DNA of 64,000 nt from Agrobacterium tumefaciens (GTDB lineage: Bacteria > Pseudomonadota > Alphaproteobacteria > Rhizobiales > Rhizobiaceae). Below, in pieces: positions 13,917 to 46,577 of the stretch. The position numbers and the translations under genes were made by a program. The DNA is taken from assembly GCA_025560025.1 (NCBI GenBank), contig CP048485.1:2262501-2326500 (forward strand), given 5' to 3'. Positions within the stretch are counted from its first letter, which is position 1. Each line of letters opens with the position of its first letter. The notes below the pieces were generated by a model. That model made no database searches. It had not been told where the DNA came from and was given only the letters and a program-made list of their open reading frames with translations.

Positions 13917-13926
13917 GCTCATTTCA

Positions 13927-13946
13927 GGCCCGCTTCCCGGCGGGCC
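13927..13946 (+). other. Hairpin between modA and modB
   Basis: GGCCCGC (13927-13933) pairs with GCGGGCC (13940-13946). No T-tract follows. Such stems after the binding-protein gene often stabilise the upstream mRNA and lower expression of the permease genes. Confidence 0.55.
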
Positions 13947-13960
13947 ATGAAACATGACGA

Positions 13961-14677: not shown

Positions 14678-15750
14678 CGCTCTCTGTCACCACCCGCCAT
14701 CACCTCGGTTCCTTTTTGCTGGACGCATCGTTTAGCTCTGAAGGCGGCGTCACGGCCCTGTTCGGGCGTTCCGGTTCCGGCAAGACCTCGATGATCCGCA
14801 TCATCGCGGGTCTGCTGCGGCCCGATGAAGGGCAGGTCTCGCTGGATGGCGAATTGCTGGCCGATAGTCAGAAACGCCTGTTTCTGCCGGCGCATAAGCG
14901 TCGTTTCGGCTATGTCTTTCAGGAAGCACGGCTGTTTCCCCATCTCAGCGTTGTCCAGAACCTGCATTACGGCAAATGGTTCGCCACGGAAAAGGCGAAG
15001 GACGCGAATGAAAACCGCATTGTCGAGATGCTGGGCATCGGCCATCTTTTGCAACGTCGCCCGGACAAACTTTCCGGCGGCGAAAAACAGCGCGTCGCCA
15101 TCGGCCGCGCCCTTCTGTCATCGCCCCGATTGCTCTTGATGGATGAACCTCTCGCCTCGCTGGACGAGGAACGAAAGGCAGAGATCATCCCCTATCTCGA
15201 ACGGCTGCGCGATGAGACGAAAATCCCGATCGTCTACGTCAGTCACTCCATCCAGGAGGTCGCCCGCCTCGCAGACCGCATCGTGGTGATGAAGGATGGC
15301 AAGGTGGAGGCGCAGGGAAAAGCCGCAGACGTGCTGTCGAGACCGGATTTCAGTGCCCACCTCGAAAGGCGTGAAGCGGGCAGCATCCTTTCCGGGCGCA
15401 TCGAAAGTTTCGATGAAAGGCATGGGCTTGCCGCCGTAAGGCTCACCTCGTCACTCCTGCAGGTTCCGGCAAAAAGCGGAAAACCGGGAATGGCGGCCAG
15501 GGTGCTGATACCGGCACGCGATGTGATGCTGGCTTTGGTAAAACCGGAAGGACTGAGCGCGCTCAACATTCTTGAAGGCCAGATTGCCGGCATCTCTGCC
15601 AGCGAAGACGGCATGGTGACCGTTCAGGTGGATTGCGGCGGCGATATCATCCAGTCGCGCATCACCGATCTGTCACGCGAGCGCCTTCAGCTGGACCTCG
15701 GAAAACCCGTGCATGCGATCATAAAGTCGGCGGCTCTCGATCCGTATTAA
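14674..15750 (+). CDS. modC: Molybdate ABC transporter ATP-binding protein
   Basis: A 358-aa ATPase with Walker A ([10 protein letters not shown], near residue 30), signature [16 protein letters not shown], and Walker [15 protein letters not shown]. The region after residue 270 is a TOBE/Mop domain, the regulatory molybdate-binding module typical of ModC. It is coupled to modB by ATGA. Its last 32 bases overlap, tail to tail, the end of modE on the other strand, so the two transcripts are complementary at their 3' ends. Confidence 0.95.
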
Positions 15751-29294: not shown

Positions 29295-32012
29295 ATGGAA
29301 CAAAGCCTTACGCGTTACATCTGGTCGCATACGAGGCGGCAGCAGCTTTTCATCCTGCTGATCGTCGCCCTGTCCATGATCCCCTATTTCCTGGCTTTCG
29401 ATCTGCCCAAGCAGATTGTCAACGGCCCTATTCAGGGGGACGGCTTCGAAGGGGCAAACGCGACGCAGCTTTTCATGCATCTCACGGTGGATATTCCCTA
29501 TTGGGGAACCGTGACACTGTTCCCGGGGTTAGAACTCAACCGCATGTCGATGCTGATGGCGCTCAGCCTCACCTTCCTTGCGCTTGTCATCATCAACGGC
29601 CTTTTCAAATATTACATCAATACCTACAAGGGCCGCCTCGGTGAACGGCTGCTCCGGCGCATCCGCTTCGAGCTTATCGACAAGATCCTGCGGTTTCCGC
29701 CCACCCACTTCAAGCGGGTCAAGGGCGCCGAAATATCCAGCATGGTGAAGGATGAGGTCGAGCCACTGGGCGGATTTACCGGCGACGCCTTCGTACAGCC
29801 GGCGCTTCTCGGTGGTCAGGCGCTCTCTGCCCTCTTCTTCATTCTCGTGCAGAATTTCTGGCTGGGCCTGATTGCCGCCTTCATGGCCGCCATTCAGGTG
29901 GGCATCATCCCCAAGATGCGCCGCCGGCTCATCGAACTCGGTCGGCAACGGCAGCTGAGCGCGCGCCAGCTTGCCGGACGCATCGGCGAAATGGTCGACG
30001 GCATCGGCACCATCCACGCCTATGACACCTCCAATTTCGAGCGAGCCGACGCCTCCCACCGGCTGGGCGATATCTTCAAGATTCGCTACGATCTCTACCA
30101 GTGGAAGTTCCTGGTCAAATTCATCAACAACTTCCTCGCACAGCTCACCCCCTTCTTCTTTTATGCGCTCGGCGGTTATCTCACCCTCAAGGGCAGCCTC
30201 GATGTCGGCCAGCTGGTCGCGGTCATCAACGCCTACAAGGAACTGCCCGGACCGCTCAAGGAGCTGATCGACTGGGATCAGGCGCGTCAGGATGTCCAGG
30301 TTAAATACGAGCAGGTCTTCGAACAGTTCGATGCCCCGAACATGATCGACGAAAAAGTGCAGAAGCTGTCCCCGGGAACGGTGGCGGCAATCACCGCACC
30401 GATCGTGGTCACCAATCTGACGCTCGAAGACGATAGCGGCAGCCGGCTTCTGGAGCAGGCATCGCTGAAAATCGAGCCAGGCGAGGTAATCGCCATCGTC
30501 GGCGGCTCCGGGGCAGAGGCGCTGGCGGATGCGATCGGCCGCACGCTGTGGCCGACCTCCGGCAAGATCAGCATCAACGATGTCGACATATTGGAACTGC
30601 CGGAATCGCTGACGGGACGACGCATCTCCTATGTGTCTTCCGACAGCTATTTTTTCCATGCCAGCCTGATGGATAACCTGCTTTACGGCCTCAAACACGC
30701 CCCGCTTGCGGATAAGGACTATGAGGGTGCGGCGCTCGAACATCGCAAATGGGAGATCCGGGAAGCCAAGTTGGCCGGCAATCCGCTGATCGACATCAAC
30801 AGCGAATGGATCGACTATGCCGCCAGCCCAGCGGGTGACGGCAGACCGGAAAACCTCATCAAGGCCATTCTTGCCGTTCTCGATAGCGTCGAGCTCTCGC
30901 AGGATATTCTGGAATTTGCGCTGCGTTCGTCGATCGATCCTCTGACCGACCTGCATCTTGCCGCCCGCATCGTGGAACTGCGGCATGTCCTGCGCGCCGA
31001 ACTGGAAAAGGAGAATCTCAGCGGCCTCATCGCGCCCTTCGAACTGGAGAGCTACAACAGCGAGGCGACGGTTGGCGAAAACCTGCTGTTCGGCACCATG
31101 CGCGACTCCACCCAGACGATCAGGACCATCATCGAAAGCGACTATTTCCGATCCTTGATGCGCGAGACCGGCCTTGTCAAAGTCCTGTTCGAGATGGGTT
31201 ACACGATTGCCGAAAACATCGTGGAAATCTTCGCCGACCTGCCGGGGGACCACCCGTTCTTCCAGCAGCTCACATTCATGACGCCTGACGACATTCCGGT
31301 CTATCAGCAAATGCTGCAACGCCTTCAGGGCCGGGGTTTCGACGAGGCCAATGAAAGCGAAAAGCGTGCGATGCTGCGGCTGAGCTTCTTTTACATCGAG
31401 CCCAGGCAGCGTTTCGGCCTTCTGTCACCGGAGATCATGAACCGGATCGTCGAAGTCCGGCACATGTTCCATGAAAACCTGCCCGACAGCCTGAAGAACG
31501 TGATCGAAATCTACGATCCGACAAAATACATGAGCGCCACCAGCCTCCTGGACAATATTCTCTTCGGCAAGGTCAGCCACCGCTATACGGACGCATCGCG
31601 GCGCATCACCCGCATTGTCGCGGATGTCATGCGCAAGCAGGGCGTTTACGAGCGTGTTCTGGCAGTGGGTCTGGATTTCAACCTCGGCGCCGGCGGCAAG
31701 CGGCTCGGGCCGCTCCAGCGCCAGAAACTCAACCTTGCAAGGGCGCTGATCCGCAAGTCCGATTATTATGTCTTCAACCGCCCTCTTCCCGGCCTTGATC
31801 CCCGACAGCAGGAGGAAATTGTCGAACGGGTCATCACATTCCTGAAACAGAACAACAATAACCCCTCGATCGTATGGGTTCTGTCGAATGCAACGCTTTC
31901 GCGCATGTTTGGCCGGGTTATCGTTGTCCACCAGGGCCTGATCACCGCCGACGGAAGTTACGAGACTCTCGCTGAGGAAAACGGTACATTCAAGGAAATG
32001 GTCGCAACATAA
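29295..32012 (+). CDS. ABC-exporter-like membrane protein with degenerate ATPase motifs (905 aa)
   Basis: The N-terminal 345 residues form an ABC exporter membrane domain, with hydrophobic segments near 18-36, 85-105, 170-205 and 278-300. The C-terminal part resembles an exporter nucleotide-binding domain but the catalytic motifs are altered: Walker A reads VGGSGAEAL (402-410), so the Lys is lost; the Q-loop Gln is gone (YVSSDSYFF); the signature LSGGQ is LGPLQ (804-808); Walker B Asp-Glu is Asn828-Arg829; and the H-loop His appears to be Asn865. About 330 extra residues lie between Walker A and the signature, and the post-Q-loop box occurs three times (LMDNLLYG, VGENLLFG, LLDNILFG). The frame is long and clean, so this is not a pseudogene. 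It is the first gene of a cluster with cyclic-nucleotide genes. Confidence 0.85.
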   Translation: MEQSLTRYIWSHTRRQQLFILLIVALSMIPYFLAFDLPKQIVNGPIQGDGFEGANATQLFMHLTVDIPYWGTVTLFPGLELNRMSMLMALSLTFLALVIINGLFKYYINTYKGRLGERLLRRIRFELIDKILRFPPTHFKRVKGAEISSMVKDEVEPLGGFTGDAFVQPALLGGQALSALFFILVQNFWLGLIAAFMAAIQVGIIPKMRRRLIELGRQRQLSARQLAGRIGEMVDGIGTIHAYDTSNFERADASHRLGDIFKIRYDLYQWKFLVKFINNFLAQLTPFFFYALGGYLTLKGSLDVGQLVAVINAYKELPGPLKELIDWDQARQDVQVKYEQVFEQFDAPNMIDEKVQKLSPGTVAAITAPIVVTNLTLEDDSGSRLLEQASLKIEPGEVIAIVGGSGAEALADAIGRTLWPTSGKISINDVDILELPESLTGRRISYVSSDSYFFHASLMDNLLYGLKHAPLADKDYEGAALEHRKWEIREAKLAGNPLIDINSEWIDYAASPAGDGRPENLIKAILAVLDSVELSQDILEFALRSSIDPLTDLHLAARIVELRHVLRAELEKENLSGLIAPFELESYNSEATVGENLLFGTMRDSTQTIRTIIESDYFRSLMRETGLVKVLFEMGYTIAENIVEIFADLPGDHPFFQQLTFMTPDDIPVYQQMLQRLQGRGFDEANESEKRAMLRLSFFYIEPRQRFGLLSPEIMNRIVEVRHMFHENLPDSLKNVIEIYDPTKYMSATSLLDNILFGKVSHRYTDASRRITRIVADVMRKQGVYERVLAVGLDFNLGAGGKRLGPLQRQKLNLARALIRKSDYYVFNRPLPGLDPRQQEEIVERVITFLKQNNNNPSIVWVLSNATLSRMFGRVIVVHQGLITADGSYETLAEENGTFKEMVAT

Positions 32013-32054
32013 ATCCAAGAAGTGGCCGAGGTGGAACAGGAACAGGGTAAGACG

Positions 32055-32510
32055 ATGCTATTCAAAGACGAAATTCAAATGCTGAAACGAGTCCCATTTT
32101 TTTCGGAAATGGAACCGTCGAAGCTTAAACTACTCGCATTTGCCTCCGATCGGGTGTCCTATCACACCGGCGACGTGTTGTTCCGGCAGGGCGATGTTGG
32201 AGATGCCGCCTATGTTCTTTTGACCGGAAAAGTCGATGTTCTGGTCGATTCTCCATCGGGCACGCTGAAAGTGGCCGAAATGACCGGCAATGCCATCGTC
32301 GGCGAAATCGCCATCCTCTGTGACAGCGTCAGAACGGCAACCATCCGCGCTTCGACCGATGTGGAAGCCCTGCGGATCGGCAAGGAGCAGTTCTTCAAGC
32401 TCATGTCGGATTTCCCTGACATTACCATCAAGGTCATGCGCGTTCTTGCCGAACGCCTCACCCAGACGACGACGGAACTGAGCAAAGCGCGCGCAAACGC
32501 CAGAACATGA
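32055..32510 (+). CDS. Cyclic nucleotide-binding domain protein
   Basis: A 151-aa protein consisting of one CNB domain (about residues 5-135) with a short helical tail and no DNA-binding domain. The phosphate-binding cassette looks intact: GEIAILCDSVRTAT with Gly83, Glu84, Arg93, Thr94, so cAMP or cGMP binding is plausible. ATG 32055 with GGTAAG upstream is preferred; a GTG at 32022, ten bases after the ABC-like stop, would add eleven residues. Proximity implies co-transcription and a role as a soluble regulator of the ABC-like protein. Confidence 0.87.
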   Translation: MLFKDEIQMLKRVPFFSEMEPSKLKLLAFASDRVSYHTGDVLFRQGDVGDAAYVLLTGKVDVLVDSPSGTLKVAEMTGNAIVGEIAILCDSVRTATIRASTDVEALRIGKEQFFKLMSDFPDITIKVMRVLAERLTQTTTELSKARANART

Positions 32511-32700
32511 GCAGCAATTCCTTGCTACCGTGACGGGCGATATTGGAAAAATAAATGTCGCACCATTGCAATATAAATGAAATGCTGACTGAATAAGGGG
32601 TAAAGGCATCCGCCAAAAAAGGGCGGATATAAGAATCTTTAGAGACAACGGGCTTCATGGGAGGAAAGCGTGCAAGATTCCGTTGTTATTGGGGTGTGTC

Positions 32701-33561
32701 ATGGCGTTCGATTCCGACACAGCAAGTCGGGAAAGTAATAGAAATTTTCGGGTAAAGATCTGGGGTGCGCGGGGAACGCTTCCTGTTTCAGGTGAAAACT
32801 TCCGAAAATACGGCGGAAATACCATCTGCATCGAGGTACGATGCGGCGATCACGTTCTTTTGTTCGACGCAGGATCAGGGCTGCATCCCGCCGGTCTGGC
32901 CTTGCGGGCGGAAGGTGTGACCGACGTCAACCTGTTCTTCTCGCACTGTCATTACGACCATATTGTCGGCTTTCCCTATTTCAAGCCGTTTTATAACAGC
33001 TGCAACGATGTCGCCATCTGGTCTGGCCACCTCGCAGGTGCCATGACAACACGGCAAATGCTCAGGGAATTCATGAGTCCGCCGTGGTTTCCCGTGCCGC
33101 TGGAGGTTTGCTGCGCAAAAATGGCGACGCGGGACTTCATGCCGGGCGACGCTCTGGATGTGCATCCGGGACTCTCGATCAGAACCGGAATGCTCAATCA
33201 TCCCGGCAACGCCATCGGCTACCGCCTGGATTGGGAAGGAAAATCCTTCGCCATCATCACCGACACCGAACATGAGCCGGGCAGCACCGACAACAATGTC
33301 CTCGACCTTATCAGGGACGTCGATCTTTTTCTCTACGATGCCATGTTCACCGATGAGGAAATGGGCCTTTATCGCGGCTATGGTCACTCATCCTGGCAGG
33401 AGGCGATCCGCCTCGCGAAGCTCGCGGGCGCAAAGAATGTCGGCTTCATCCATCATGCCCCAAGCCGCAGCGACGAGGAGCTGGACGATATCGAAAAACA
33501 GGCAAAAGCCCTGTTCAGCGGCGCGTTCGCGGCCATGGACGGCCAGATCATCCAGCTCTGA
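32701..33561 (+). CDS. Metallo-beta-lactamase-fold hydrolase, possible cyclic-nucleotide phosphodiesterase
   Basis: A 286-aa MBL-fold enzyme with a full metal set: His82, His84, Asp86 and His87 in HCHYDH, His167 (MLNHPGN), Asp188 or Asp213, and His229/His251. It begins VKIWGARGTLPVSGENFRKYGGNT, a pattern shared with MBL proteins linked to signalling. The start at 32701 follows GGGGTG; an ATG-like start at 32683 is less likely. Location between a CNB protein and an adenylate cyclase suggests cyclic-nucleotide hydrolysis, but class II phosphodiesterases have HxHLDH, so activity is inference. A phosphonate- or RNA-active role is an alternative. Confidence 0.85.
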   Translation: MAFDSDTASRESNRNFRVKIWGARGTLPVSGENFRKYGGNTICIEVRCGDHVLLFDAGSGLHPAGLALRAEGVTDVNLFFSHCHYDHIVGFPYFKPFYNSCNDVAIWSGHLAGAMTTRQMLREFMSPPWFPVPLEVCCAKMATRDFMPGDALDVHPGLSIRTGMLNHPGNAIGYRLDWEGKSFAIITDTEHEPGSTDNNVLDLIRDVDLFLYDAMFTDEEMGLYRGYGHSSWQEAIRLAKLAGAKNVGFIHHAPSRSDEELDDIEKQAKALFSGAFAAMDGQIIQL

Positions 33562-33776
33562 GCACGATTTGACGTCGCCTGCGGCCTGATCTGCCCGACG
33601 GTTTTTCGAAATTCTGATCAACACCCTTCGTCATGCGGCGGGCATTCGAACACGCACAATTGACCGGTCCGGATCAATTGCTCCACGATATTGCCACGAG
33701 ACGGCCTGCACTAAGGGGATTGCCACCACATATTACATGATGATTCTACGCCGAATGACCATCTGATGGGATTTGC

Positions 33777-35471
33777 ATGATCCGTTTCTTTTCGGAGACC
33801 AATTTGAGACGCGCCCGGATTTTATCCGGCCTCATCATATTTGCTTTCGTCTTTTCCCATCTTTTCAACCATTCCCTTGCACTCATCTCCATCGATACCG
33901 CTGAGCGGGCGCGAAAATGGTTCAGCCTGATCTGGCTCAATCCCGTCAGCAGCCTGCTTTTTTATGGCTCGGTTGTAGTGCATGTCTGTCTTGTTCTGCG
34001 CTCGCTTTATCAGCGTCGAACCCTGCGCATGCCGCTTCGTGAAGCGCTCCAGGTCATATTCGGCCTGTCCATCCCATTTCTGATCATCGGCCATGCCGTC
34101 AATATCCGTGTATCGCATATGCTTTATGGCATTGATGTCGGCTACTACTCGGTCATCCGCCGGCTATGGATCAACAACCCGATACAGGGCATGTGGCAAA
34201 GCCTCGCACTGATCGTGATCTGGGTCCACGGATGCATCGGCCTCTATTTCTGGCTGCGATACCGGGACTGGTATCCACGCATAGCGGGGCTGTTCATGAC
34301 GGTAGCGGTGATGCTGCCGCTTCTGGCACTCCTGGGTTTTAGCGATGCCGGTCGCTGGCTGGCGGAGATTGATGAAAAATACGCCCTTCCTCCCGGGCTG
34401 ACCGACAATACCATTCAGAAAGACGAACTGCCGCTGCAACGGGAAATGGAGACGCGGATCCGCTTCATCACCGGCGCGACGGAGACCCTGTTCGCCGGCG
34501 CGGTGATGCTGGTATTTGTGCTGCGCGGTGTGCGCAGCTTCCGGCAACGGCTGACGGCCATAGAAATCCGCTATGAACATGGCGCACAGGCGCGCGTGCC
34601 GGCCGGGCTCAGCATTCTGGAAGCCAGCCGGCTTGCGGGCATCCCGCATTATTCCGTCTGCGGCGGCAAAGGACGCTGCTCGACCTGCCGTGTCAGAGTT
34701 GTCGGCAGCAAGGGCCCGCTTCCGCCTCCCGGAGATATTGAGCAAACTACGTTGAGACGTATCCACGCCGATTCGGATGTGCGCCTCGGCTGCCAGTTGC
34801 GGCCCACCCACGATCTTGGGGTGGCGCTTCTCGTATCGCCGCCGCAGCAAAGCGACCTGCCGCCGGATGCCCAACCCGCCCGACCCGGCACGGAAGAGGA
34901 GATCGCCATCCTCTTTTGCGATCTGCGCAATTTCACCACGCTTTCCGAAGCCAAGCTGCCCTATGACGTCGTATTTCTCCTGAACCGCTACTTCACCATC
35001 GTCGGTCAGGCCGTCGAACAGGCTGGCGGCCATCTCGACAAATTTATCGGCGACGGTGCCATGGCTCTCTTCGGACTTGGCGATAACGCGGAAAATGCCT
35101 GCCGCAATGCCATGAAGGCGGCCGCGATCATCCTGCGGGAACTTTCGATCCTGAACGAGGGTCTGGAAAAGCAGTTTGCCGTCCGGCTGGATGTGGTGGT
35201 CGGCATCCATGCCGGCCCAACCATCGTCGGCGTCATGGGCTATGGCGCCGCAAAAACCCTGACGGCTATCGGCGACACCGTGAACGTGGCAAGCAGGCTG
35301 GAGTCCAAGGCCAAGGAATTTGGCGCCGCCATTGTCGTTTCCGAGCCCGCCATTCTCCAGGCGGGGCAGGAGATTGCCGATCTGCGAAGCGAAAAAATCG
35401 CCATTCGCGGGCGAAACTCGCAAATGAGGGTCTTCCTGCTGTCGAAGGAAGAGAGCGAGCGCTATCTATAG
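33777..35471 (+). CDS. Membrane adenylate cyclase with 6TM anchor and [2Fe-2S] ferredoxin domain (CyaC-like)
   Basis: A 564-aa three-part sensor. Residues 15-250 form about six membrane helices with several His in or near helices (28, 32, 69, 106, 114, 151), resembling the succinate-dehydrogenase-type dihaem anchor described for S. meliloti CyaC. Residues 262-350 are a plant-type ferredoxin with Cys295, Cys301, Cys304 and Cys339. Residues 375-555 are a class III cyclase with metal Asp382 and Asp426, substrate-selecting Lys422 and Asp500 (ATP type), and Asn503/Arg507. It would sense quinone or redox state and make cAMP. It starts at 33777, 215 bases after the MBL gene. Confidence 0.92.
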   Translation: MIRFFSETNLRRARILSGLIIFAFVFSHLFNHSLALISIDTAERARKWFSLIWLNPVSSLLFYGSVVVHVCLVLRSLYQRRTLRMPLREALQVIFGLSIPFLIIGHAVNIRVSHMLYGIDVGYYSVIRRLWINNPIQGMWQSLALIVIWVHGCIGLYFWLRYRDWYPRIAGLFMTVAVMLPLLALLGFSDAGRWLAEIDEKYALPPGLTDNTIQKDELPLQREMETRIRFITGATETLFAGAVMLVFVLRGVRSFRQRLTAIEIRYEHGAQARVPAGLSILEASRLAGIPHYSVCGGKGRCSTCRVRVVGSKGPLPPPGDIEQTTLRRIHADSDVRLGCQLRPTHDLGVALLVSPPQQSDLPPDAQPARPGTEEEIAILFCDLRNFTTLSEAKLPYDVVFLLNRYFTIVGQAVEQAGGHLDKFIGDGAMALFGLGDNAENACRNAMKAAAIILRELSILNEGLEKQFAVRLDVVVGIHAGPTIVGVMGYGAAKTLTAIGDTVNVASRLESKAKEFGAAIVVSEPAILQAGQEIADLRSEKIAIRGRNSQMRVFLLSKEESERYL

Positions 35472-35507: not shown

Positions 35508-36005
35508 TCAAATCTTGCGATAGAGAAAATAGCGGTCGGTCGGCACGCTTTCCGGCACCGGCAACGGTTTCAGCATGGGATGATCCAGTGGCAGACCACT
35601 GACCGCAACGCCGCCTTTCGCCAGCATAGCCGCGGCAAGATCAGGCAGCCACGTCAAGGTGATCGCATCCTTCTCAGGGTAGCCGGTACCGATATCGGCA
35701 TGGACCAGAGCCGCTTCGGCGCCGATGAAGGCGGGAGCGGTTTGCGATATTTCGCCGATTACGAGATCTTCTTCCGGCGGGACGGACGAGGCATGTGCGC
35801 CCATGGCCCTGTCAAAGGCGACGATACGGCGTTCCGGAAACAGTTCCCGCAAATGATTGAACGTGCGGCCGTTTCCAAGCCCGATTTCCATAATCGCGCC
35901 TTCATTCGGGAGATCGAGATCGGCCTCGACATGGTTGAGGATATCCCGCTGCGCGGTCAACCGGCGAATGAAACTGTCCAATCTGCTCATAGTCCGTCCA
36001 TTCAT
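35508..36005 (-). CDS. Class I SAM-dependent methyltransferase-like protein
   Basis: A 165-aa small methyltransferase-like protein with SAM motif I as IMEIGLGNGRTFNHL (about 38-52), an acidic end to strand 2 (RIVAFDRAM), and a later ITLTWLPDLAAAML helix. The core is complete but no substrate domain is visible. ATG 35990 (MSRLDSF) is an alternative start. It converges on the cyclase gene and lies downstream of the nucleotide-sugar dehydrogenase on the same strand, so it may belong to the polysaccharide region. The substrate is unknown. Confidence 0.75.
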   Translation of the reverse strand: MNGRTMSRLDSFIRRLTAQRDILNHVEADLDLPNEGAIMEIGLGNGRTFNHLRELFPERRIVAFDRAMGAHASSVPPEEDLVIGEISQTAPAFIGAEAALVHADIGTGYPEKDAITLTWLPDLAAAMLAKGGVAVSGLPLDHPMLKPLPVPESVPTDRYFLYRKI

Positions 36006-36068: not shown

Positions 36069-37409
36069 TCAGGCCTTGATGATGTGTTTTGCGGCTATAT
36101 CCCGGCGTGCAAAGACATTTCGCGTGTCGATGATCAGCGGTGCCCATTCGCAGAGAGCGGCGTAGTCCACATTGTCGTGATCGGTCGCCACGAGAACGGC
36201 ATCGAAGGTGCCGACCGTCTGCTTGTCCCATGCAACGGATTTCATGCCCATCAAGTGGCTATATTCCCGGGTTTTGGGGATTTCCGCCACATGAGGATCG
36301 AAATAGGCCGCTTCACCGCCGCGCTCCTGGATGAGCTCGATGAGCTTCAGCGAGGGGCTTTCGCGAATATCGGGCACATTTTTCTTATAGGCGAGACCAA
36401 CGACTAGCACCTTCGAGCGGCTCAGCGCCTTGCCGGAATGAATGTCGAGCGCTTCCGCGACGCGCCCGATGACATGGCGCGGCATGCCGGTGTTGATTTC
36501 GCCGGCAAGCTCGATGAACCGCGTCGGCAACTCATATTCCCGCGATTTCCAGGTGAGGTAGAAAGGGTCGATCGGTATGCAATGGCCGCCGAGGCCCGGG
36601 CCGGGATAAAACGGCATGAAACCGAAAGGCTTGGTTTTCGCCGCGTCGATCACCTCCCATATGTCGATGCCCATGGCCTCGTAGACGACCTTGAGTTCAT
36701 TGACGAGCGCGATATTGACCGCACGAAAGACGTTTTCGGTGATCTTCACAGCCTCGGCCGTGGCGTTTGTCGAGACCGGAACGATCTTCTTCACCACCGC
36801 ACCGTAGAAGGCGGCCATCAGTTTTCCGGCAGCCTCGCCATCACCGGCAACAACCTTTGGAATGGTCGAGGTCTCGAAATCGCGATTGCCTGGATCTTCC
36901 CGCTCGGGCGAAAAGCCGATGAAGAAATCAACGCCGGAGACAAGCCCGGTGCTTTCCAGAATGGTCTTTACCACCCCATCGGTCGTACCGGGATAGGTAG
37001 TCGATTCCAGAACGACGAGCTGCCCCTTGCGAAGATGGGCGGCAATATCCCGGCAGGTCTTTTCGACATAGGAAAGGTCCGGCTCGCGATATTTCGTCAA
37101 GGGCGTCGGCACGCAGATGGCGATCACATCGCATTCTGCCAGTCGGGAAAAATCGCAGGTGGCAACAAAGCCGTCATCACGCCTGACGTCTGAAAGCACC
37201 TCATCCGACACAGCCTCAATATAGCTGCGGCCCACTTCGATCGCGGTAATTTTGCCGGGGTCTATATCGAAACCGACAACCTTGAAACCGGCCCTGGCGA
37301 TCGTCATGGCAAGCGGCAGGCCCACGTAGCCAAGGCCGATCACGCCCGCTTTGGCGCTTTTGTTTTCGATGCTGGAAAGCAGGTTTTGGGAAATGTCTGG
37401 GGAAGTCAA
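36069..37409 (-). CDS. Nucleotide sugar dehydrogenase (WbpA/TviB-like UDP-HexNAc 6-dehydrogenase)
   Basis: A 446-aa four-electron dehydrogenase making a UDP-hexuronic acid. The NAD motif is GVIGLGYVGLPLA (about 19-31), the catalytic Cys is in GPGLGGHCIPIDP (about residue 275), and it has the family's central and C-terminal UDP-binding domains (VLVVGLAYKKNVPDIRESPSLKL). The proportions and motifs match the UDP-N-acetylglucosamine/galactosamine 6-dehydrogenase branch better than Ugd. It starts a group of surface-polysaccharide genes and is divergent from a glycosyltransferase across 127 bases. Confidence 0.92.
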   Translation of the reverse strand: MTSPDISQNLLSSIENKSAKAGVIGLGYVGLPLAMTIARAGFKVVGFDIDPGKITAIEVGRSYIEAVSDEVLSDVRRDDGFVATCDFSRLAECDVIAICVPTPLTKYREPDLSYVEKTCRDIAAHLRKGQLVVLESTTYPGTTDGVVKTILESTGLVSGVDFFIGFSPEREDPGNRDFETSTIPKVVAGDGEAAGKLMAAFYGAVVKKIVPVSTNATAEAVKITENVFRAVNIALVNELKVVYEAMGIDIWEVIDAAKTKPFGFMPFYPGPGLGGHCIPIDPFYLTWKSREYELPTRFIELAGEINTGMPRHVIGRVAEALDIHSGKALSRSKVLVVGLAYKKNVPDIRESPSLKLIELIQERGGEAAYFDPHVAEIPKTREYSHLMGMKSVAWDKQTVGTFDAVLVATDHDNVDYAALCEWAPLIIDTRNVFARRDIAAKHIIKA

Positions 37410-37536: not shown

Positions 37537-38634
37537 ATGAAGATCGCCTTTTATTCGCCGCTCAAATCGCCCAACCATCCCGTTCCCTCCGGCGATCGGC
37601 TGATGGCCCGTCTGCTGATGACGGCGATGACCATGGGCGGCCATGAGGTTTGCGTCGCCTCCGAGTTGCGCAGCTTTCTGAAACAGGCGGATGATCCGGC
37701 GCGCGCCTCTCTCACCGATGCCGCCGAACACGAGACCGAAACAATTGCAGAGCTTTGGCGGCGGCAGGGCGTGCCGGACCTCTGGTTTTGCTACCACCCC
37801 TACTACAAGGCCCCGGATCTGCTCGGGCCGGAACTCAGCAGGCGTTTCGATATCCCCTATGTCACCGCCGAGGCCTCCTATTCACCCAAGCGCAACGGCA
37901 TGGGCTGGCAGGCCGTTCAGGACGACCTGCTGGCCTCATTGACGGCCGCCGCGGTCAATATCTGCTTCACCGCGCGGGATCGCGATGGGCTTCTGCGTGC
38001 CTCTCCCGCCATCCGCCATGCGACCTTGCAGCCCTTTATCGACGCCGGCGCCTTTCTCGAAAACGAGCCTCGCCCGACGCCGGCAAGGCTGATCACCGTC
38101 GCCATGATGCGGGCGGGCGACAAGCTTGGCAGCTATCGCGCGCTTTCCCAGGCACTTGCCCTCCTGCCGCAAGATCTGGACTGGACATTGGATATCGTCG
38201 GCGACGGGCCGGAACGCGCGACCGTTCAAGCCATGTTCGGCTCTTTTCCCGGAAACCGCCTCGTCTGGCACGGGGAAAAAACCGCAGCCGAGATCGCCGC
38301 TCTTCTTTCCCGCGCATCCCTTTATGTCTGGCCGGGGCATGGCGAGGCCTATGGTCTTGCCTATCTCGAAGCACAGGCCGCCGGGCTGCCCGTGGTGGCC
38401 GAAGAGGTGGCAGGCGTTCCCGAAGTGGTAAAATCCGGTACCACCGGATTACTGACACCGGAAAATGATACAGCCGCCTATGCCGGTGCAATTGAAACCC
38501 TGCTCGGCAATGACAGGCGGCGTGAAGAACTGGCAAAGGCGGCCCGGCAATTCGTCAAGGATGAACGGTCTCTGCAAAACGCCGCGAAAGAACTGAACCA
38601 TATTCTGTTGCGAGCAAAGGCACGAACACCATGA
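37537..38634 (+). CDS. Glycosyltransferase family 4 (GT-B fold)
   Basis: A 365-aa GT-B glycosyltransferase. The acceptor half starts MKIAFYSPLKSPNHPVPSGDRLMARLL, and the donor half holds the EX7E-type site in HGEAYGLAYLEAQAAGLPVVAEEVAGVPEVV (split across about residues 268-298). It has no membrane segment and would act at the cytoplasmic face. Its stop overlaps the deacetylase start (ATGA). Together with the divergent nucleotide-sugar dehydrogenase it suggests synthesis of an acidic surface glycan. The sugar donor cannot be read from sequence. Confidence 0.9.
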   Translation: MKIAFYSPLKSPNHPVPSGDRLMARLLMTAMTMGGHEVCVASELRSFLKQADDPARASLTDAAEHETETIAELWRRQGVPDLWFCYHPYYKAPDLLGPELSRRFDIPYVTAEASYSPKRNGMGWQAVQDDLLASLTAAAVNICFTARDRDGLLRASPAIRHATLQPFIDAGAFLENEPRPTPARLITVAMMRAGDKLGSYRALSQALALLPQDLDWTLDIVGDGPERATVQAMFGSFPGNRLVWHGEKTAAEIAALLSRASLYVWPGHGEAYGLAYLEAQAAGLPVVAEEVAGVPEVVKSGTTGLLTPENDTAAYAGAIETLLGNDRRREELAKAARQFVKDERSLQNAAKELNHILLRAKARTP

Positions 38635-39377
38635 GTCTGGAAAAACTCGTAACGGCACTGGACGAATGCGCGCAGCGCGGCATAACCGCCGACCTCTGGC
38701 TGAGAGACGACGACGCGGTGGAGCCGACGCCGGCGCTCGACACGCTGCTCGCTCTTTGCAGCAGCTTTTCCGTTCCGGTCACCCTTGCGGTCATACCCGA
38801 GATGACGACGGGCAGGCTCGCGCAATATCTGGATAAAGCCGATATTGCCCATGTCGCCGTCCATGGCTGGTCCCACACCAATTATGCCGGTGAGAAAGAA
38901 AAGAAACGGGAACTCGGATTGCACCGCGATCTGTCCATCGTTCTCGACGAGTTGCAATCCGGGCTGGAAAAATTGCACGATCTGCATGGCGAACGTCTGG
39001 TACCGATGCTGGTGCCACCGTGGAACCGTATCGATACCGGTGTCGTGGCGGAACTGACCGGCCTCGGCTATCGTGCATTGTCCGTTTTTGGCCCGGAGAA
39101 AAACACCGTCCCACCCTGCCTGAACACCCATGTCGACGTGATCGACTGGCACGGCAGCCGTGGCGGCCGCGAAGACGACAGTCTTTTCGTCGAAACCGCC
39201 GCCCGTATGCGCTGGGCAGCGGACCATGGCGGCGGCTCCACAGGCATCCTGACCCATCATCTCGTTCATGACGACAATGTCTGGCGCTTCCTGAGACGGC
39301 TTTTCGAGGTAACCGCCAACCATCCCGCCGCCCGCTGGCGTTCCTCGGCAGACCTCGTCAACGGAATCTCACCATGA
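38631..39377 (+). CDS. Polysaccharide deacetylase-like protein
   Basis: A 248-aa protein of the NodB-homology type in a shortened form. The metal Asp motif is DLWLRDDDAVEPTP (about 21-34), and the His motif is AVHGWSHTN (about 79-87, HxxxH). A later PPWNRI block supports the fold. It would remove N- or O-acetyl groups from sugar residues; the lack of a signal peptide suggests a cytoplasmic precursor as substrate. It is coupled to the glycosyltransferase before it and overlaps the next gene tail to tail by 9 bases. Confidence 0.88.
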   Translation: MSLEKLVTALDECAQRGITADLWLRDDDAVEPTPALDTLLALCSSFSVPVTLAVIPEMTTGRLAQYLDKADIAHVAVHGWSHTNYAGEKEKKRELGLHRDLSIVLDELQSGLEKLHDLHGERLVPMLVPPWNRIDTGVVAELTGLGYRALSVFGPEKNTVPPCLNTHVDVIDWHGSRGGREDDSLFVETAARMRWAADHGGGSTGILTHHLVHDDNVWRFLRRLFEVTANHPAARWRSSADLVNGISP

Positions 39378-40331
39378 CTTCCAGGCAATCAGCAATCCGT
39401 CCATCCCGGCAGCGTGCTCACGCCTGAGTGCCTCCACCGCCTCAAACGGCGCACGATCGGGAAGAGAGGCGGCAACAAAGGATGCAGGCGCAAGGCTGAT
39501 GCTTCCCACCCGAGCGATGACGGTGAAGATCAGCGGGCCTGTCGACCACCAGGCCGGCGCGCGCGGCATATCGGCGATGATCCCGGGAAAAGCCTCCAGC
39601 ATTCGTCGAAAGACGGGATGGCCGGCCGGGGCGGCGATGAAGGAATTGGCGAGAAGCATGCTGCCCTGCCCGGTATCACGCGGCGTTTTTTCATCAAACG
39701 CCGTCAGCCCCATCAAGGGCAGGAAAGCGTCGAAACTCAGATCGTCCCTGGCCGGATACCAGTCACAATCGAGATAGATACCGCCAAAACGTTCCAGCAG
39801 AATGTAACGGGCCACATCCACCGCGCCCGGATAATCGCCCTGATCCAACATCGTTCTGAAGACGTCGTTTGCAAGCACGCCTTCCCGCTCAAGATCGGCC
39901 TCGCGCCAGAGGCGATACTCGTAACCGTGTGAGGCGGCATGGGAAGCCCAGGCTTCAACCGATACCGGCGGGGCTTTTTCCCCGATCCATATCTGGTGAA
40001 CGAGCCTCGGCACCTCCTCCCTGTTTTTCAGGTTGATCGTGCGGCGTTCTTCCGGAGAAAATTGTGCATATTTTGCCAGCGCCCGTGGTGGCGGAACCAG
40101 CGTATATTGATAGCCGATTTTCGCGACCAAATCGCCTTCAGCCTTGGCGAGACGCAGCCGCGCCGCGTGCAGCCGACGCGGCAGGCCGAGCACTGTTTCC
40201 TCGCCCATGAGATGCCTGTCTTTTACTGCAACCAGCGATAAGAGAAGCGCATTCGCTTCCGCATATTGCCCTTCATTTTGCAACTGCCGGGCTCTGTCCA
40301 GCTGGGCATCGTAATATTTCTTGTCGGACAT
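39369..40331 (-). CDS. OCH1-like glycosyltransferase (DXD-containing sugar transferase)
   Basis: A 320-aa glycosyltransferase with the DXD-containing sugar-transferase motif FGGIYLDCDWYP (about 210-221), preceded by VDVARYILLERFGG and VPRLVHQIWIGEKAPP, the standard start of the OCH1/capsule type. Residues 1-45 are an extra helical segment like a TPR hairpin (ARQLQNEGQYAEANALLLSLVA). It probably transfers a hexose in capsule or glycolipid synthesis. It converges on the deacetylase and is divergent from an ABC importer across 211 bases. Confidence 0.88.
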   Translation of the reverse strand: MSDKKYYDAQLDRARQLQNEGQYAEANALLLSLVAVKDRHLMGEETVLGLPRRLHAARLRLAKAEGDLVAKIGYQYTLVPPPRALAKYAQFSPEERRTINLKNREEVPRLVHQIWIGEKAPPVSVEAWASHAASHGYEYRLWREADLEREGVLANDVFRTMLDQGDYPGAVDVARYILLERFGGIYLDCDWYPARDDLSFDAFLPLMGLTAFDEKTPRDTGQGSMLLANSFIAAPAGHPVFRRMLEAFPGIIADMPRAPAWWSTGPLIFTVIARVGSISLAPASFVAASLPDRAPFEAVEALRREHAAGMDGLLIAWKSW

Positions 40332-40542: not shown

Positions 40543-42435
40543 ATGAGCGCAGGCGCAGATTTGCTCCGTATTGAAAACCTGCGGGTCTCGTTTTCTCTTA
40601 TGGGTGGTACGATTGATGCCGTGAGGGGCGCCAGCCTTCGCATTCTTCCGGGAAAAGTAACCGCGCTGGTCGGAGAGTCCGGCTCGGGAAAATCCGTCAT
40701 CGGCCAGACGATCATGGGCATCCATCCCAAGACGGCGCGCGTGAATGGCCGCGTGCTCTTCACCGATCCCCAAAATACCGCCGCCGGCCCCGTCAATCTG
40801 CTGCAACTGCCGAAGGACGGCCGGGAAATACGGGCCATCCGCGGAAATCGCATCGGGCTGATTTTTCAGGAGCCGATGACATCTTTTTCACCGCTGCACA
40901 CCATCGGCAACCAGATCGACGAGGCGCTGCGAATCCACAGCATCCTGTCGCCGGCCGAGCGCGCGGAAAAAATGCATGAAACGCTCGATCTTGTAGGGTT
41001 TTCCAACCCGAAGAAGGTCGTGAACATGTATCCCTTCGAATTATCGGGCGGCATGCGCCAGCGCGCCATGATCGCCATGGCGCTGATCTGTCGCCCGGCC
41101 CTTCTGATCGCTGACGAACCGACGACGGCGCTTGATGTGACCATACAGGCGCAGATCCTCAAGCTCCTGCGCGATCTGCAGAGCCGGCTGAACATGAGCA
41201 TGCTGCTCATCACCCACGATCTCGGCGTGGTGGCGAACATCGCCGATGAGGTTGCCGTGATCTATCAGGGCGAGATCATGGAGGCAGGCACCGTCGACGA
41301 CATCTTCAAGTCGCCGGGCCATCCCTATCTCAAGGGCCTGATGGCCGCCGTGCCGCATTTCGATATGAAGCCCGGCGAGAGACTGAAGGCACTGCGCGAA
41401 ATCACGGTTGATCATGAAAGCCTTGTCGGCAAAAAAACCGCCGCGGTGAACAAGACGCCCGGACCGCTTCTGACCGTGGACAACATCAGCAAGACCTTCA
41501 CCACCCGCAAATCCAGCTGGTTCCGCAAAGGCGACGCACACGCCACCAAGGCGGTCAACAGCGTCAGTTTTGAAATCCGCCGGGGCGAATGCCTTGGGCT
41601 GGTGGGAGAAAGCGGCAGCGGCAAAACCACCGTCAGCAAGATCCTCATGCGCGCCGTCCGCCCCGACGAAGGTTCTGTAACCTTCCACCGGCCGCAGGGC
41701 GATATCGACGTCCTCAATGCCAGGGACGGCGATCTCAAGGAATTGCGCTCGAAGATACAGATGGTCTTTCAGGACCCGATCTCATCGCTTTCTCCGCGCA
41801 TGACCGTGGGCAACATCCTGAGTGAACCGCTTGAAATCCACGGGCGCGGCGACGCAAAATATCGCGCGGAGAAAGTCCGCAATCTCCTGAAGGCAATCGG
41901 TCTTGGCGAAAGTGCCCTGAACCGCTACCCGCACAGTTTCTCCGGCGGCCAGCGGCAGCGCATTGGCATCGCGAGAGCCCTGGCGCTCGGTCCTGAATTG
42001 CTGATCTGCGATGAACCCGTTTCCGCCCTCGATGTCTCGGTGCAGGCGCAAATTCTCAACCTGCTCAAGGATTTGCAAAAGGACCTCGGCCTCACTTACC
42101 TCTTCATCTCGCATAATCTGGCGGTCGTGGATTATATGGCCGACCGCGTGGCCGTGATGTGCGAGGGCCGCATCGTCGAGCTGGCACCGCGGGAAGTCCT
42201 GATGCGCTCCCCCGTACATCCCTATACCAAATCGCTGCTGGCGGCCGTGCCCTTTCCCGATCTCGATCGTCCACTCGATTTCCGCACCATCGGCAAGATC
42301 AGCGCGACGGGCAAGTTCGACTGGGGCAGGCAATTCCGCGACGAGGGTGATGGTGCGATGATCTCCGCCGATCTGGGCGAAGGCCATTTCGTTCTTGCCA
42401 ACGGCAATGCCGACATCCGGGAGCTCCGCCCTTGA
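40543..42435 (+). CDS. Oligopeptide/dipeptide-type ABC importer, fused double ATPase (DppDF/OppDF-like)
   Basis: A 630-aa protein with two complete ATPase domains in one chain. Domain 1 has GESGSGKSV, LSGGMRQRAMIAMAL and LLIADEPTTALD; domain 2 has GESGSGKTT, FSGGQRQRIGIARAL and LLICDEPVSALD. Each is followed by an Opp-type C-terminal extension (GHPYLKGLMAAVP, VHPYTKSLLAAVP). Both are intact, unlike the exporter-like gene at 29295. A GCAAGGAAC site precedes ATG 40543. It overlaps the binding-protein gene by four bases (TTGA) and heads a seven-gene row on the plus strand. Confidence 0.95.
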   Translation: MSAGADLLRIENLRVSFSLMGGTIDAVRGASLRILPGKVTALVGESGSGKSVIGQTIMGIHPKTARVNGRVLFTDPQNTAAGPVNLLQLPKDGREIRAIRGNRIGLIFQEPMTSFSPLHTIGNQIDEALRIHSILSPAERAEKMHETLDLVGFSNPKKVVNMYPFELSGGMRQRAMIAMALICRPALLIADEPTTALDVTIQAQILKLLRDLQSRLNMSMLLITHDLGVVANIADEVAVIYQGEIMEAGTVDDIFKSPGHPYLKGLMAAVPHFDMKPGERLKALREITVDHESLVGKKTAAVNKTPGPLLTVDNISKTFTTRKSSWFRKGDAHATKAVNSVSFEIRRGECLGLVGESGSGKTTVSKILMRAVRPDEGSVTFHRPQGDIDVLNARDGDLKELRSKIQMVFQDPISSLSPRMTVGNILSEPLEIHGRGDAKYRAEKVRNLLKAIGLGESALNRYPHSFSGGQRQRIGIARALALGPELLICDEPVSALDVSVQAQILNLLKDLQKDLGLTYLFISHNLAVVDYMADRVAVMCEGRIVELAPREVLMRSPVHPYTKSLLAAVPFPDLDRPLDFRTIGKISATGKFDWGRQFRDEGDGAMISADLGEGHFVLANGNADIRELRP

Positions 42436-44333
42436 TCACGCGCCGCACCACCCTTGCCCTGCTCGCATCCGTCTTTTTGCCGGCCTACGCACGCGCCGCC
42501 TATACCGATCCCGACTACTTCAAGGAAAAGCGGGAGAAGGGCGAATTGCCGGATGTGGCGGAACGCCTGCCGAAGAACCCGCGCGTCATCGATATGAAAG
42601 CGCTTGGCCGCGAGCCGGGAAAACATGGTGGCTCCGTGCGGATGCTGATTGGCGGCCAGCGCGATATCAGGCTTATGCCGATCAGCAACTATGCCCGCCT
42701 TGTCGGTTATGACGAAAAATTCGAGCTGCACCCGGACATTCTGGAAAGCTACGATGTCGAGGAAGAGCGCATCTTCACCTTCAAGCTGCGCGAGGGCCAC
42801 AAATGGTCCGATGGCAGCGATTTAACCTCCGAGGATTTCCGTTATTTCTGGGAGGATGTCGCCCTCAACAAGGAAATCCACAAGGGCGGTCCGCCGATCG
42901 AACTTCTGGTCAACAATAAGCCGCCCCTGATCGAGGTCATCGATCGGTTCACCGTGCGTTATACCTGGGAAGGCCCCAACCCGGATTTTCTGGCGAAGCT
43001 CGCGGCCGCCTCGCCGGCGCGGCTGTTCCTCCCCGCCGCTTATATGAAGCAGTTCCACGTCAAATATCAGACGGCGGAAAATCTCGCCAAGCTCATCAAG
43101 AAGAACAAGGCGGATGACTGGAGCGGGCTGCATATCAAGATGTCGAGACAGGTCCGGCCGGAAAATCCCGCCTTGCCGACGCTCGACGCATGGCGAAACA
43201 CGACCTCGCCGCCGGCCGAACAATTCGTGTTCGAACGCAATCCCTATTATCACCGCGTCGACGAAAATGGCCTGCAGCTGCCCTATCTCGACCGGTTCCT
43301 GCTGAACGTCACCTCGTCCGATATCATCTCGGCGAAGACCGCGTCGGGCGACAGCGACCTGCAATATTTCGGCCTCGACTTCGCCGATTACACCTTTCTG
43401 AAGGATGCCGAAAAGCGCTTTCCCCTGAAGGTGAACCTCTACAAGCGCTCCCAGGGCTCACGCATCGCGCTTCTGCCCAATCTGAACTGCGCCGATCCTG
43501 TGTGGCGTGGCTATTTCCAGGATGTGCGCGTGCGCCGGGCCTTGTCGCTCGCGATCAACCGGCATGAAATCAACATGGTCTGCTTTTACGGGCTGGCGAA
43601 GGAAAGCGCCGACACGGTTCTGCCGGAAAGCCCGCTTTACCGACCCGAATTCGCCGAAGCCTGGAGCGCCTTCGACCGTGCGGCAGCCAACAGGCTGCTC
43701 GATGAAGTGGGTCTCGACAAGCGCGACAACGCCGGCATAAGGCTCCTGCCGGATGGACGCCCAGCCTATATCATCGTCGAGACAACAGGCGAAAGCACGC
43801 TCGAGACCGACGTGATGGAACTGGTGACGGATCATTGGCGGCATATCGGTATTGCGGTTTCCGTCCGCCCCACCCAGCGTGATGTCTTCCGCAAGCGCGC
43901 CATGGGCGGCGAGGTGCTGATGTCGGTATGGATGGGCATGGACAATGGCGTACCGACCTCGGATATGCTGCCATCCGGCCTTGCCCCCACCGGCGACGAC
44001 CAGTTGCAATGGCCGGTCTGGGGCATCCATTATCTGTCCGGCGGACGTGAAGGCAAGGAACCCGATCTGCCGGAGGCGGCGCATCTGCTCGATCTCCTGA
44101 AGAAATGGCGCCGAAGCGTCACCGAGGAAGAACGCGAAGCCATCTGGCTGGAGATGCTGGGTATCTATACACAGCAGGTCTTTTCCATCGGCATCGTCAA
44201 CGGCGCGCTTCAGCCCGTCGTCCATGTCAAACGCATGCGAAATGTGCCGGAAAAGGCGCTTTTCGGTTACGAACCCACATCGTATCTCGGCGTCTACCTG
44301 CCGGATGCCTTCTGGTACGACGGAGACGCCTGA
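42432..44333 (+). CDS. ABC importer substrate-binding protein, SBP family 5
   Basis: A 633-aa periplasmic binding protein with a signal peptide ending near ARA-AYTDPDYF; the start is TTG at 42432, overlapping the ATPase stop. SBP5 landmarks are FKLREGHKWSDGSDLTSEDFRYFWEDV and VRRALSLAINRHEI. It is larger than typical dipeptide-binding proteins (about 530 aa), which suits long or bulky ligands such as oligosaccharides or glycopeptides; several large SBP5 proteins bind sugars. It is followed two bases later by the first permease. Confidence 0.92.
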   Translation: MITRRTTLALLASVFLPAYARAAYTDPDYFKEKREKGELPDVAERLPKNPRVIDMKALGREPGKHGGSVRMLIGGQRDIRLMPISNYARLVGYDEKFELHPDILESYDVEEERIFTFKLREGHKWSDGSDLTSEDFRYFWEDVALNKEIHKGGPPIELLVNNKPPLIEVIDRFTVRYTWEGPNPDFLAKLAAASPARLFLPAAYMKQFHVKYQTAENLAKLIKKNKADDWSGLHIKMSRQVRPENPALPTLDAWRNTTSPPAEQFVFERNPYYHRVDENGLQLPYLDRFLLNVTSSDIISAKTASGDSDLQYFGLDFADYTFLKDAEKRFPLKVNLYKRSQGSRIALLPNLNCADPVWRGYFQDVRVRRALSLAINRHEINMVCFYGLAKESADTVLPESPLYRPEFAEAWSAFDRAAANRLLDEVGLDKRDNAGIRLLPDGRPAYIIVETTGESTLETDVMELVTDHWRHIGIAVSVRPTQRDVFRKRAMGGEVLMSVWMGMDNGVPTSDMLPSGLAPTGDDQLQWPVWGIHYLSGGREGKEPDLPEAAHLLDLLKKWRRSVTEEEREAIWLEMLGIYTQQVFSIGIVNGALQPVVHVKRMRNVPEKALFGYEPTSYLGVYLPDAFWYDGDA

Positions 44334-44334
44334 T

Positions 44335-45333
44335 ATGCTGCGGTATATTTTGAAGCGCATCCTCGTCATGATCCCCACGCTGATTCTGATCTCGATGCTG
44401 GTTTTCACCATCATCGAACTGCCGCCGGGCGATTATTTCGAAAGCTATGTCGCCGAACTGCGCGCCATGGGCGAGACGGCGAACCTTGCCGAAATCGAGG
44501 AGCTGCGTACCCGCTATGGCTTCGATCAGCCGGCACCGATCCGCTACTTCCGCTGGGCAACCGGCATGCTGGTCGGCGATTTCGGTTATTCCTTCGAATA
44601 TCAGCTGCCCGTCAGCGACGTGGTGGGAGACCGCCTGTGGTTGACGGTCCTGGTATCCTTCGTCACCATCATCGTCACATGGCTCCTCGCCTTCCCGATC
44701 GGCATCTATTCCGCCACGCATAAATATAGCTGGGGTGATTACGGGCTCACCTTCCTCGGCCTGCTCGGCATCGCCATCCCCAATTTCATGCTGGCGTTGA
44801 TCCTGATGTATTTTGCCAATATCTGGTTCGGCATCTCCATCGGCCATCTGATGGACCGGGAATATCTGAACCAGGCAATGAGCTGGGCGAAGTTCAAGTC
44901 GATCCTCGAACATATCTGGATACCCGTCCTCATTATCGGAACCGCAGGCACGGCCGGCATGATCCGCCGCCTGCGCGCCAACCTCCTGGACGAATTGCAG
45001 AAGCAATATGTCGTAACGGCGCGTGCGAAGGGGCTTCACCCCTTCAAGGTGCTGATCAAATATCCCCTGCGCATGGCGTTGAATTTCTTCATTTCGGACA
45101 TCGGCTCGATCCTGCCTGCCATTATTTCCGGCGCGGAAATTACCGCCGTCGTGCTGTCGCTCGAAACCACCGGTCCGATGCTCATCAGGGCTTTGCAGAG
45201 CCAGGACATGTATCTGGCCGGTTCGTTCCTGATGTTCCTCGCTTTCCTGACGGTGATCGGCGTTCTGGTCTCGGATATCGCCCTTGCCATACTCGACCCG
45301 AGAATTCGCTTTGGAGGTGGTAACGTCAAATGA
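44335..45333 (+). CDS. ABC importer permease (DppB/OppB-like)
   Basis: A 332-aa permease starting MLRYILKRILVMIPTLILISM, the standard DppB/OppB N-terminus with TM1. A periplasmic loop follows, then five more membrane helices and the coupling helix near VVTARAKGLHPFKVLIKYPLRMAL. The start at 44335 lies one base after the binding-protein stop; the ATG at 44224 in the same frame is inside that gene. It ends with ILDPRIRFGGGNVK and overlaps the second permease (ATGA). Confidence 0.94.
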   Translation: MLRYILKRILVMIPTLILISMLVFTIIELPPGDYFESYVAELRAMGETANLAEIEELRTRYGFDQPAPIRYFRWATGMLVGDFGYSFEYQLPVSDVVGDRLWLTVLVSFVTIIVTWLLAFPIGIYSATHKYSWGDYGLTFLGLLGIAIPNFMLALILMYFANIWFGISIGHLMDREYLNQAMSWAKFKSILEHIWIPVLIIGTAGTAGMIRRLRANLLDELQKQYVVTARAKGLHPFKVLIKYPLRMALNFFISDIGSILPAIISGAEITAVVLSLETTGPMLIRALQSQDMYLAGSFLMFLAFLTVIGVLVSDIALAILDPRIRFGGGNVK

Positions 45334-46505: not shown

Positions 46506-46577
46506 AATGGAACACCCTTTGATAAACTGCTCTTCCGCCATCGCCTTTTTTCTGAAAGGCAAAAAGAGGTGTGGCCT

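Follow-up and report, generated by a model that had tools for sequence, protein, structure and literature searches.

What would an ATP-binding cassette (ABC) exporter without working ATPase motifs do beside a lone cyclic-nucleotide-binding (CNB) protein, a metallo-β-lactamase (MBL)-fold hydrolase and an adenylate cyclase? This question is raised by four adjacent genes in a stretch of 64,000 nucleotides (the window; contig CP048485.1, positions 2,262,501 to 2,326,500) from an Agrobacterium tumefaciens genome of 5.68 Mb on 4 contigs. Among named relatives, Agrobacterium genomosp. 13 CFBP 6927 (locus L005) is the closest, and its ABC protein is 100% identical. The initial annotation had read the four genes as an undescribed cyclic AMP (cAMP) signalling cassette. 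Comparison across genomes instead gives a conserved core made of the ABC-CNB pair and glycosyltransferases, with the MBL hydrolase and the cyclase as looser members. Our preferred reading, to which we assign a probability of about 0.5, is that a glycan locus conserved among alphaproteobacteria has these four genes as its regulatory end: the cAMP-bound CNB protein would switch an ABC-fold controller and the MBL enzyme would reset it.

The four genes lie in the same direction on the + strand, as had been annotated (Table 1). The gaps of 42, 190 and 215 bases given for them were reproduced with ATG starts; between the ABC and CNB genes the gap is 9 bases from the GTG start and 42 from the ATG. 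The residues that had been picked out were also present, namely Asp382, Asp426 and Lys422 of the cyclase, Gly-Glu 83-84 and Arg-Thr 93-94 of the CNB protein (counted from the ATG; 94-95 and 104-105 from the GTG) and a complete HxHxDH metal site, HCHYDH, at residues 88-93 of the MBL protein. A scan for terminators listed no + strand site within the three gaps, an absence that says little because the scan yielded fewer sites (4) than it did in shuffled sequence (7.4).

The ABC protein (hereafter pseudo-ABC) has the transmembrane fold of a type IV ABC exporter (the MsbA/P-glycoprotein fold) and the fold of a nucleotide-binding domain (NBD), and its structural matches include TmrAB, TM287/288 and SUR2A/SUR2B. 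The working motifs of such exporters (Walker A GK[ST], signature, Walker B DE) are missing from the window protein. Its NBD is divided by an insert of ~275 residues, and a Q-loop segment is present in three copies, which a profile comparison matched with probabilities of 98.6% (copies 2 and 3), 89.9% (1 and 3) and 60.4% (1 and 2).

We followed the family through 140 loci. Eighty are near loci, the best 80 of 394 relatives found in a search of genome contigs. Forty are distant loci of the same order, taken from 66 matches in a set of 150 genomes after setting aside genomes of the window's own family, cut-off matches and some intact ones. The remaining 20 are hand-picked regions from other orders, drawn from 18 of the 79 ABC-carrying genomes in a set of 240 genomes of the class. 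Identical patterns were applied to the pseudo-ABC proteins and, as a control, to the 61 other ABC open reading frames (ORFs) in these loci. Walker A was matched by 1/140 pseudo-ABC proteins versus 61/61 controls, the signature by 0/140 versus 59/61 and strict Walker B by 0/140 versus 41/61. The description of a degenerate exporter is thus borne out, with Walker A and the signature lost in nearly the whole family. The sole member with an intact Walker A (GSGKS) is a CNB-fused protein at L148 (8087-11221, - strand), possibly an intermediate form. The family was found in 61/150 order genomes, 45/90 order genera and 79/240 class genomes; beyond the class, a draw of 150 genomes from the phylum gave only one partial transmembrane match (G485).

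A CNB gene stands directly 3' of pseudo-ABC on the same strand in all 80 near loci, 9-307 bases on, and 3' of it on the same strand in 40/40 distant order loci and 20/20 other-order loci; at L040, L045 and L061 the profile rule missed a CNB gene that other inspections of the locus found. Ten of the 60 distant loci, from 8 genomes, encode both proteins in a single open frame (L134, L148, L154, L181-183 and L185-188), and the three of these fusions submitted to Pfam each gave ABC_membrane, ABC_tran and cNMP_binding. Nine of the other-order loci were chosen for their long frames, and the 7/20 fusions among these loci are therefore not a rate. Synteny and fusion together give strong support to a partnership in which the two proteins act together. 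The pocket pattern GE...R[ST]A was present in 125 of the 137 CNB proteins checked, and the window protein also matches the phosphate-binding cassette G-E...R-[ST]-A. The closest relatives of the CNB profile were the domains of Toxoplasma PCR12, PKG and PKA, with the SthK channel lower. The earlier proposal that the CNB protein acts on the membrane protein is thereby upheld as far as a standing pair, a single chain in some lineages and a canonical pocket in most members; its ligand would be cAMP. For the fused homologue L188 a structure was predicted with a pLDDT of 89.6, and its VIA-align list consists mostly of ABC rows that hardly bear on the CNB part. Genome G302 carries three paralogous fusions (L181, L182 and L183), none of which passes the pocket pattern and none of which has a glycosyltransferase cluster in the fetched stretch. 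The assembly at L029 has a CNB reading frame that breaks off part of the way through.

The initial annotation had suggested a search for all four families across Rhizobiales genomes. In the order set, a class III cyclase was present in 61/61 genomes with pseudo-ABC versus 52/89 without, an MBL relative in 48/61 versus 5/89, and the glycosyltransferase GTx in 55/61 versus 1/89; in the class set the figures were 78/79 versus 76/161 for the cyclase and 72/79 versus 38/161 for the MBL protein. Cyclase and MBL counts are among the matches listed (at best 20 or 13 cyclases per genome were scored), and since genome size and ancestry are ignored throughout, the figures show a conserved neighbourhood and not a corrected probability. 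A cyclase lay within 9.5 kb of pseudo-ABC in 24 of the 40 distant order loci, against 0.75 expected for PF00211 under a uniform placement model that ignores ancestry. Of the 48 order genomes with both genes, 33 had the MBL gene within 6 kb of pseudo-ABC; at least 25 of the 79 class genomes (the window's own included) had it within 30 kb, 22 of these at 14-24 kb. The tight run of ABC, CNB, MBL and cyclase genes was seen in 19 Agrobacterium-type loci and, more loosely, in three Phyllobacterium loci (L060, L070 and L076), and ten distant order loci keep the same order (L130, L135, L136, L138, L140, L143, L144, L146, L150 and L152). All 20 genomes checked for both (19 behind near loci and the window's own) carried a full-length cyclase relative and an MBL relative. 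In nine Rhizobium-type genomes these were on the same contig as pseudo-ABC, the cyclase 15.8-28.9 kb and the MBL gene 19.5-34.2 kb away, and 2.1-3.6 kb from each other; in a tenth (L066) both were on other contigs. The four families thus occur together in genomes, but the MBL and cyclase genes are often not adjacent to the pair. Because they adjoin it only in some lineages, the core is the ABC-CNB pair and not a four-gene operon.

The window cyclase consists of a hydrophobic membrane part with six histidines (residues 1-260), a [2Fe-2S] ferredoxin domain and a class III catalytic domain, and it is the only full-length relative in its genome at E 1e-30. The spacing of Lys422, Thr496, Asn503 and Arg507 (74, 7 and 4 residues) is that of K410, T484, N491 and R495 in Sinorhizobium meliloti CyaC (PMC10463352). 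Membrane anchor, ferredoxin domain and a class III domain with the Lys/Thr and Asn/Arg pairs place it with the CyaC type. The activity of S. meliloti CyaC (SMc01818) depends on quinone, and the protein combines a 6TM diheme-B anchor with a [2Fe-2S] cluster (PMC10463352); ferredoxin-linked 6TM class IIIb cyclases had been described previously (PMC4821796). This part of the system is already known, and redox control, known for the relative CyaC, may extend to the window enzyme. All 26 cyclases beside 24 of the distant order loci match PF00211; seven have a ferredoxin domain, one a CHASE2 and one a GAF domain, and the remaining, shorter proteins mostly have 5-7 hydrophobic segments, four having none. 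The label of a redox-type cyclase suits the window, but it names a type already described that only 7/26 locus cyclases share.

The MBL protein fell short of the family cut-offs, scoring 50.1 bits against 400 for NF041851 (MBL-fold cyclic-nucleotide phosphodiesterase) and 71.8 against 292.95 for RNase Z TIGR02651. Nothing else in the source genome matches RNase Z better (46.7 bits for its best piece). It may act as a cAMP phosphodiesterase that resets the signal. At L022 a metallophosphatase-like gene (13300-15078, - strand; labelled by eye) lies between the CNB and MBL genes, and its single-sequence profile found relatives in 25/80 near loci and 0/60 distant loci.

Next to the four genes is a glycan locus with four glycosyltransferases and published mutant phenotypes that the initial annotation overlooked. 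Around the core it comprises GTx, GTy, GTz, a GT4 enzyme and a deacetylase-like protein, reaching position 50225. GTx is upstream of pseudo-ABC and divergent from it in 25/40 order and 10/20 other-order loci, and upstream in the same direction in 6/40 order and 58/80 near loci; it was not within the fetched stretch in 9/40, 10/20 and 21/80 order, other-order and near loci, respectively. Atu locus tags were assigned to the window glycan genes by gene order and not by sequence. Counting from pseudo-ABC as Atu2577, the UDP-sugar dehydrogenase becomes Atu2582 and the glycosyltransferases Atu2583, Atu2590 and Atu2592, so that by gene order the window locus fits the A. tumefaciens Atu2577-Atu2592 cluster. 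If that starting point holds, the dehydrogenase and three glycosyltransferases of the window fall exactly on tags named for strain C58 (PMC9790009). A yejABEF mutant gained fitness from disruption of five genes there (Atu2577, Atu2582, Atu2583, Atu2590 and Atu2592); the cluster, which probably has a part in an uncharacterised glycan, had earlier been reported as required for phenazine resistance (PMC9790009). In contrast to the window as analysed here, the excerpt of that description does not name the CNB, MBL and cyclase genes or the loss of ATPase motifs.

Under our preferred reading, pseudo-ABC would be a former ABC exporter whose NBD lacks the motifs that ordinary ATP cycling needs and which may have become a membrane controller or conduit for glycan from the neighbouring glycosyltransferases. 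The CNB protein, a separate chain in the window and part of one chain in several lineages, would be its regulatory subunit. Binding of cAMP to it would switch a pseudo-ABC no longer run by its own ATP cycle, the switched protein would control glycan assembly or export, and the MBL enzyme would reset it by removing cAMP. We infer both the effect on glycan export or assembly and the direction of control. An attractive link may be that the glycan counters redox-active phenazines while the cyclase type of this genome senses quinone redox state. A more specific version, which we consider rather doubtful, is a cyclic-nucleotide-gated glycan conduit, in which quinone-set cAMP (in this genome) and not the protein's own ATP hydrolysis would open and close glycan export or assembly.

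Several results weigh against the preferred reading, besides the uncorrected co-occurrence figures. Loose patterns match Walker B ([DN]E) in 54/140 and the signature in 16/140 pseudo-ABC proteins, and the loss of these two motifs is therefore graded. The pocket pattern fails in five of the ten fusions (L181-183, L185 and L187), whose CNB domain may therefore have lost the usual mode of sensing a cyclic nucleotide. The redox input is not conserved, given how few locus cyclases have the ferredoxin domain. The PDB relatives of the MBL protein are RNase Z, PhnP and Apyc1. Gene order also loosens with distance, with a same-strand MBL gene within 3.5 kb in 43/80 near, 19/40 order and 0/20 other-order loci and a cyclase within 9 kb in 23/80, 21/40 and 1/20; two of the 23 near-locus cyclases (L026 and L035) are a distant cyclase of 32-33% identity. 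Finally, the CNB domain of HetC, the nearest CNB-bearing exporter found, binds ppGpp and not cAMP (PMC10986499), and S. meliloti CyaC interacts with Clr and CycR (PMC10463352).

The last two observations suit a possible alternative, to which we give less than an even chance, in which the ABC-CNB pair does control the glycan but responds to another ligand (cGMP, ppGpp or some other nucleotide), and the cyclase and MBL enzyme form a separate cAMP circuit that, as in S. meliloti, works through a CRP-type regulator. It would also account for the 18/20 other-order loci without a cyclase within 9.5 kb, and for the Rhizobium-type genomes in which MBL and cyclase keep together 15.8-34.2 kb from pseudo-ABC. 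The presence of a cyclase in all but one of the genomes carrying the pair argues the other way, as do the nearness of the CNB profile to PKG- and PKA-type domains and the Lys/Thr pair of CyaC in the window cyclase. That the signalling genes merely lie near the glycan locus, with only the ABC-CNB pair linked to it and the Agrobacterium run a local rearrangement, is improbable in our view: the run is indeed broken in many near relatives and absent from the 20 other-order loci, but its order recurs in the ten distant order loci, and the MBL gene stays within 30 kb in the class genomes counted above.

We hold it equally unlikely that pseudo-ABC is still an ATP-driven transporter, paired in a heterodimer with a canonical half-exporter whose gene lies elsewhere, and that the CNB protein is an additional regulator. 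The heterodimeric exporters TmrAB and TM287/288 among the structural matches would agree with it, as would remnants of GSGR[ST] or LSAGQ in distant members, the GSGKS of L148 and the loose Walker B matches. Yet Walker A is gone in 139/140 proteins, the insert splits the NBD, and a half-exporter is not a regular neighbour, since the transmembrane part of the family profile gave no alignment with any of the 61 control ABC ORFs. Pfam analysis of ten ABC ORFs (nine neighbours and the window's own) returned eight peptide-importer ATPases, one MalK-like protein and one half-exporter; the latter, at L181, had been missed by the family-profile test.

Our literature searches found no description of an exporter family without working ATPase motifs that has a standing CNB partner in a glycan locus. 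The initial remark that no system of this composition was known is in keeping with this for the ABC-CNB-glycan family, but CyaC-type cyclases and phenotypes of the glycan locus had been published. SUR2A and SUR2B share the ABC exporter fold with pseudo-ABC as a structural match, but are eukaryotic ABCC proteins whose solved structures contain Mg-ATP/ADP. SUR proteins act as channel regulators, not as pumps. HetC of Nostoc PCC 7120 likewise has a CNB domain in an ABC exporter that is needed for function, but the ppGpp-binding domain is N-terminal and HetC has a peptidase domain and an essential ATPase residue (PMC10986499). In pseudo-ABC no peptidase domain was found by Pfam, the CNB part is separate or C-terminal, and the ATPase motifs are lost. 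The window cyclase matches S. meliloti CyaC in membrane anchor, Fer2 domain, class III domain and residue spacing, but adjoins the ABC-CNB pair and the glycan locus, whereas cyaC is preceded by a TetR regulator gene and its product interacts with Clr (PMC10463352). Both cAMP signalling and a CNB-bearing exporter were known before; what appears new, judging by these searches, is an exporter family that lacks working ATPase motifs and keeps a CNB protein as its regular partner within a glycan locus. If the preferred reading is true, a large ABC-fold family has lost its ATPase motifs across one bacterial class yet kept a cyclic-nucleotide subunit, and an unexplained glycan locus linked to phenazine tolerance and cell-wall fitness gains a concrete hypothesis for its control. 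It would also give CyaC-type cyclases a direct, non-transcriptional target; according to a 2023 paper, the cascade downstream of this type was wholly unknown before Clr and CycR were reported.

Table 1. Genes and protein segments of the four-gene run and the adjoining glycan locus, in window positions unless residues are given.
Feature	Position	Strand	Basis
Pseudo-ABC exporter, 905 aa	29295..32012	+	ORF list; Pfam ABC_membrane and weak ABC_tran
Pseudo-ABC, transmembrane domain	residues ~1-345		
Pseudo-ABC, NBD N half	residues ~370-470		
Pseudo-ABC, degenerate Walker A, residues 401-412, no GK[ST]	30495..30530	+	family alignment
Pseudo-ABC, NBD insert with two additional Q-loop-like segments	residues ~471-745		
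Pseudo-ABC, NBD insert with copies 2 and 3 of the Q-loop/'ENLLFG' segment	30705..31529	+	profile comparison
Pseudo-ABC, NBD C half	residues ~746-905		
Lone CNB protein	32022..32510 (GTG start; alternative ATG 32055)	+	Pfam cNMP_binding, 74.9 bits
MBL-fold hydrolase, RNase Z/PhnP-like relatives, HxHxDH site	32683..33561 (TTG; alternative ATG 32701)	+	Pfam Lactamase_B_2
CyaC-type adenylate cyclase, 564 aa	33777..35471	+	Pfam Fer2 and Guanylate_cyc
S-adenosylmethionine (SAM) methyltransferase (PF12692)	35508..36005	-	Pfam
UDP-sugar dehydrogenase	36069..37409	-	Pfam
GT4 glycosyltransferase, conserved glycan cluster	37537..38634	+	Pfam; neighbourhood comparison
Polysaccharide-deacetylase-like protein (label by eye), conserved glycan cluster	38631..39377	+	
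Glycosyltransferase-like protein (label by eye; no NCBIfam match)	39369..40331	-	
Oligopeptide-type ABC importer operon	40543..46505	+	family matches for the ATPase and binding protein; the two permeases judged by ORF position and appearance
GTx, GT28-like glycosyltransferase, co-occurs with pseudo-ABC	46569..47786	+	
GTy, GT4 glycosyltransferase (EpsE/WcaL-like)	47830..49077	+	
GTz, MurG-like glycosyltransferase	49059..50225	+	

Among the neighbouring genes, the deacetylase-like protein gave no Pfam or NCBIfam match at 1e-3. The window's oligopeptide-type importer operon lies inside the glycan locus, and importer ATPases resembling its own also lie near the glycosyltransferase cluster in other loci, such as L050, L060, L173 and L191. 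On the other side of the core, positions 27140-28990 (- strand) encode a single protein with two alpha/beta-hydrolase halves that match the exosortase-associated families TIGR03100 and TIGR03101 at scores under the cut-offs.

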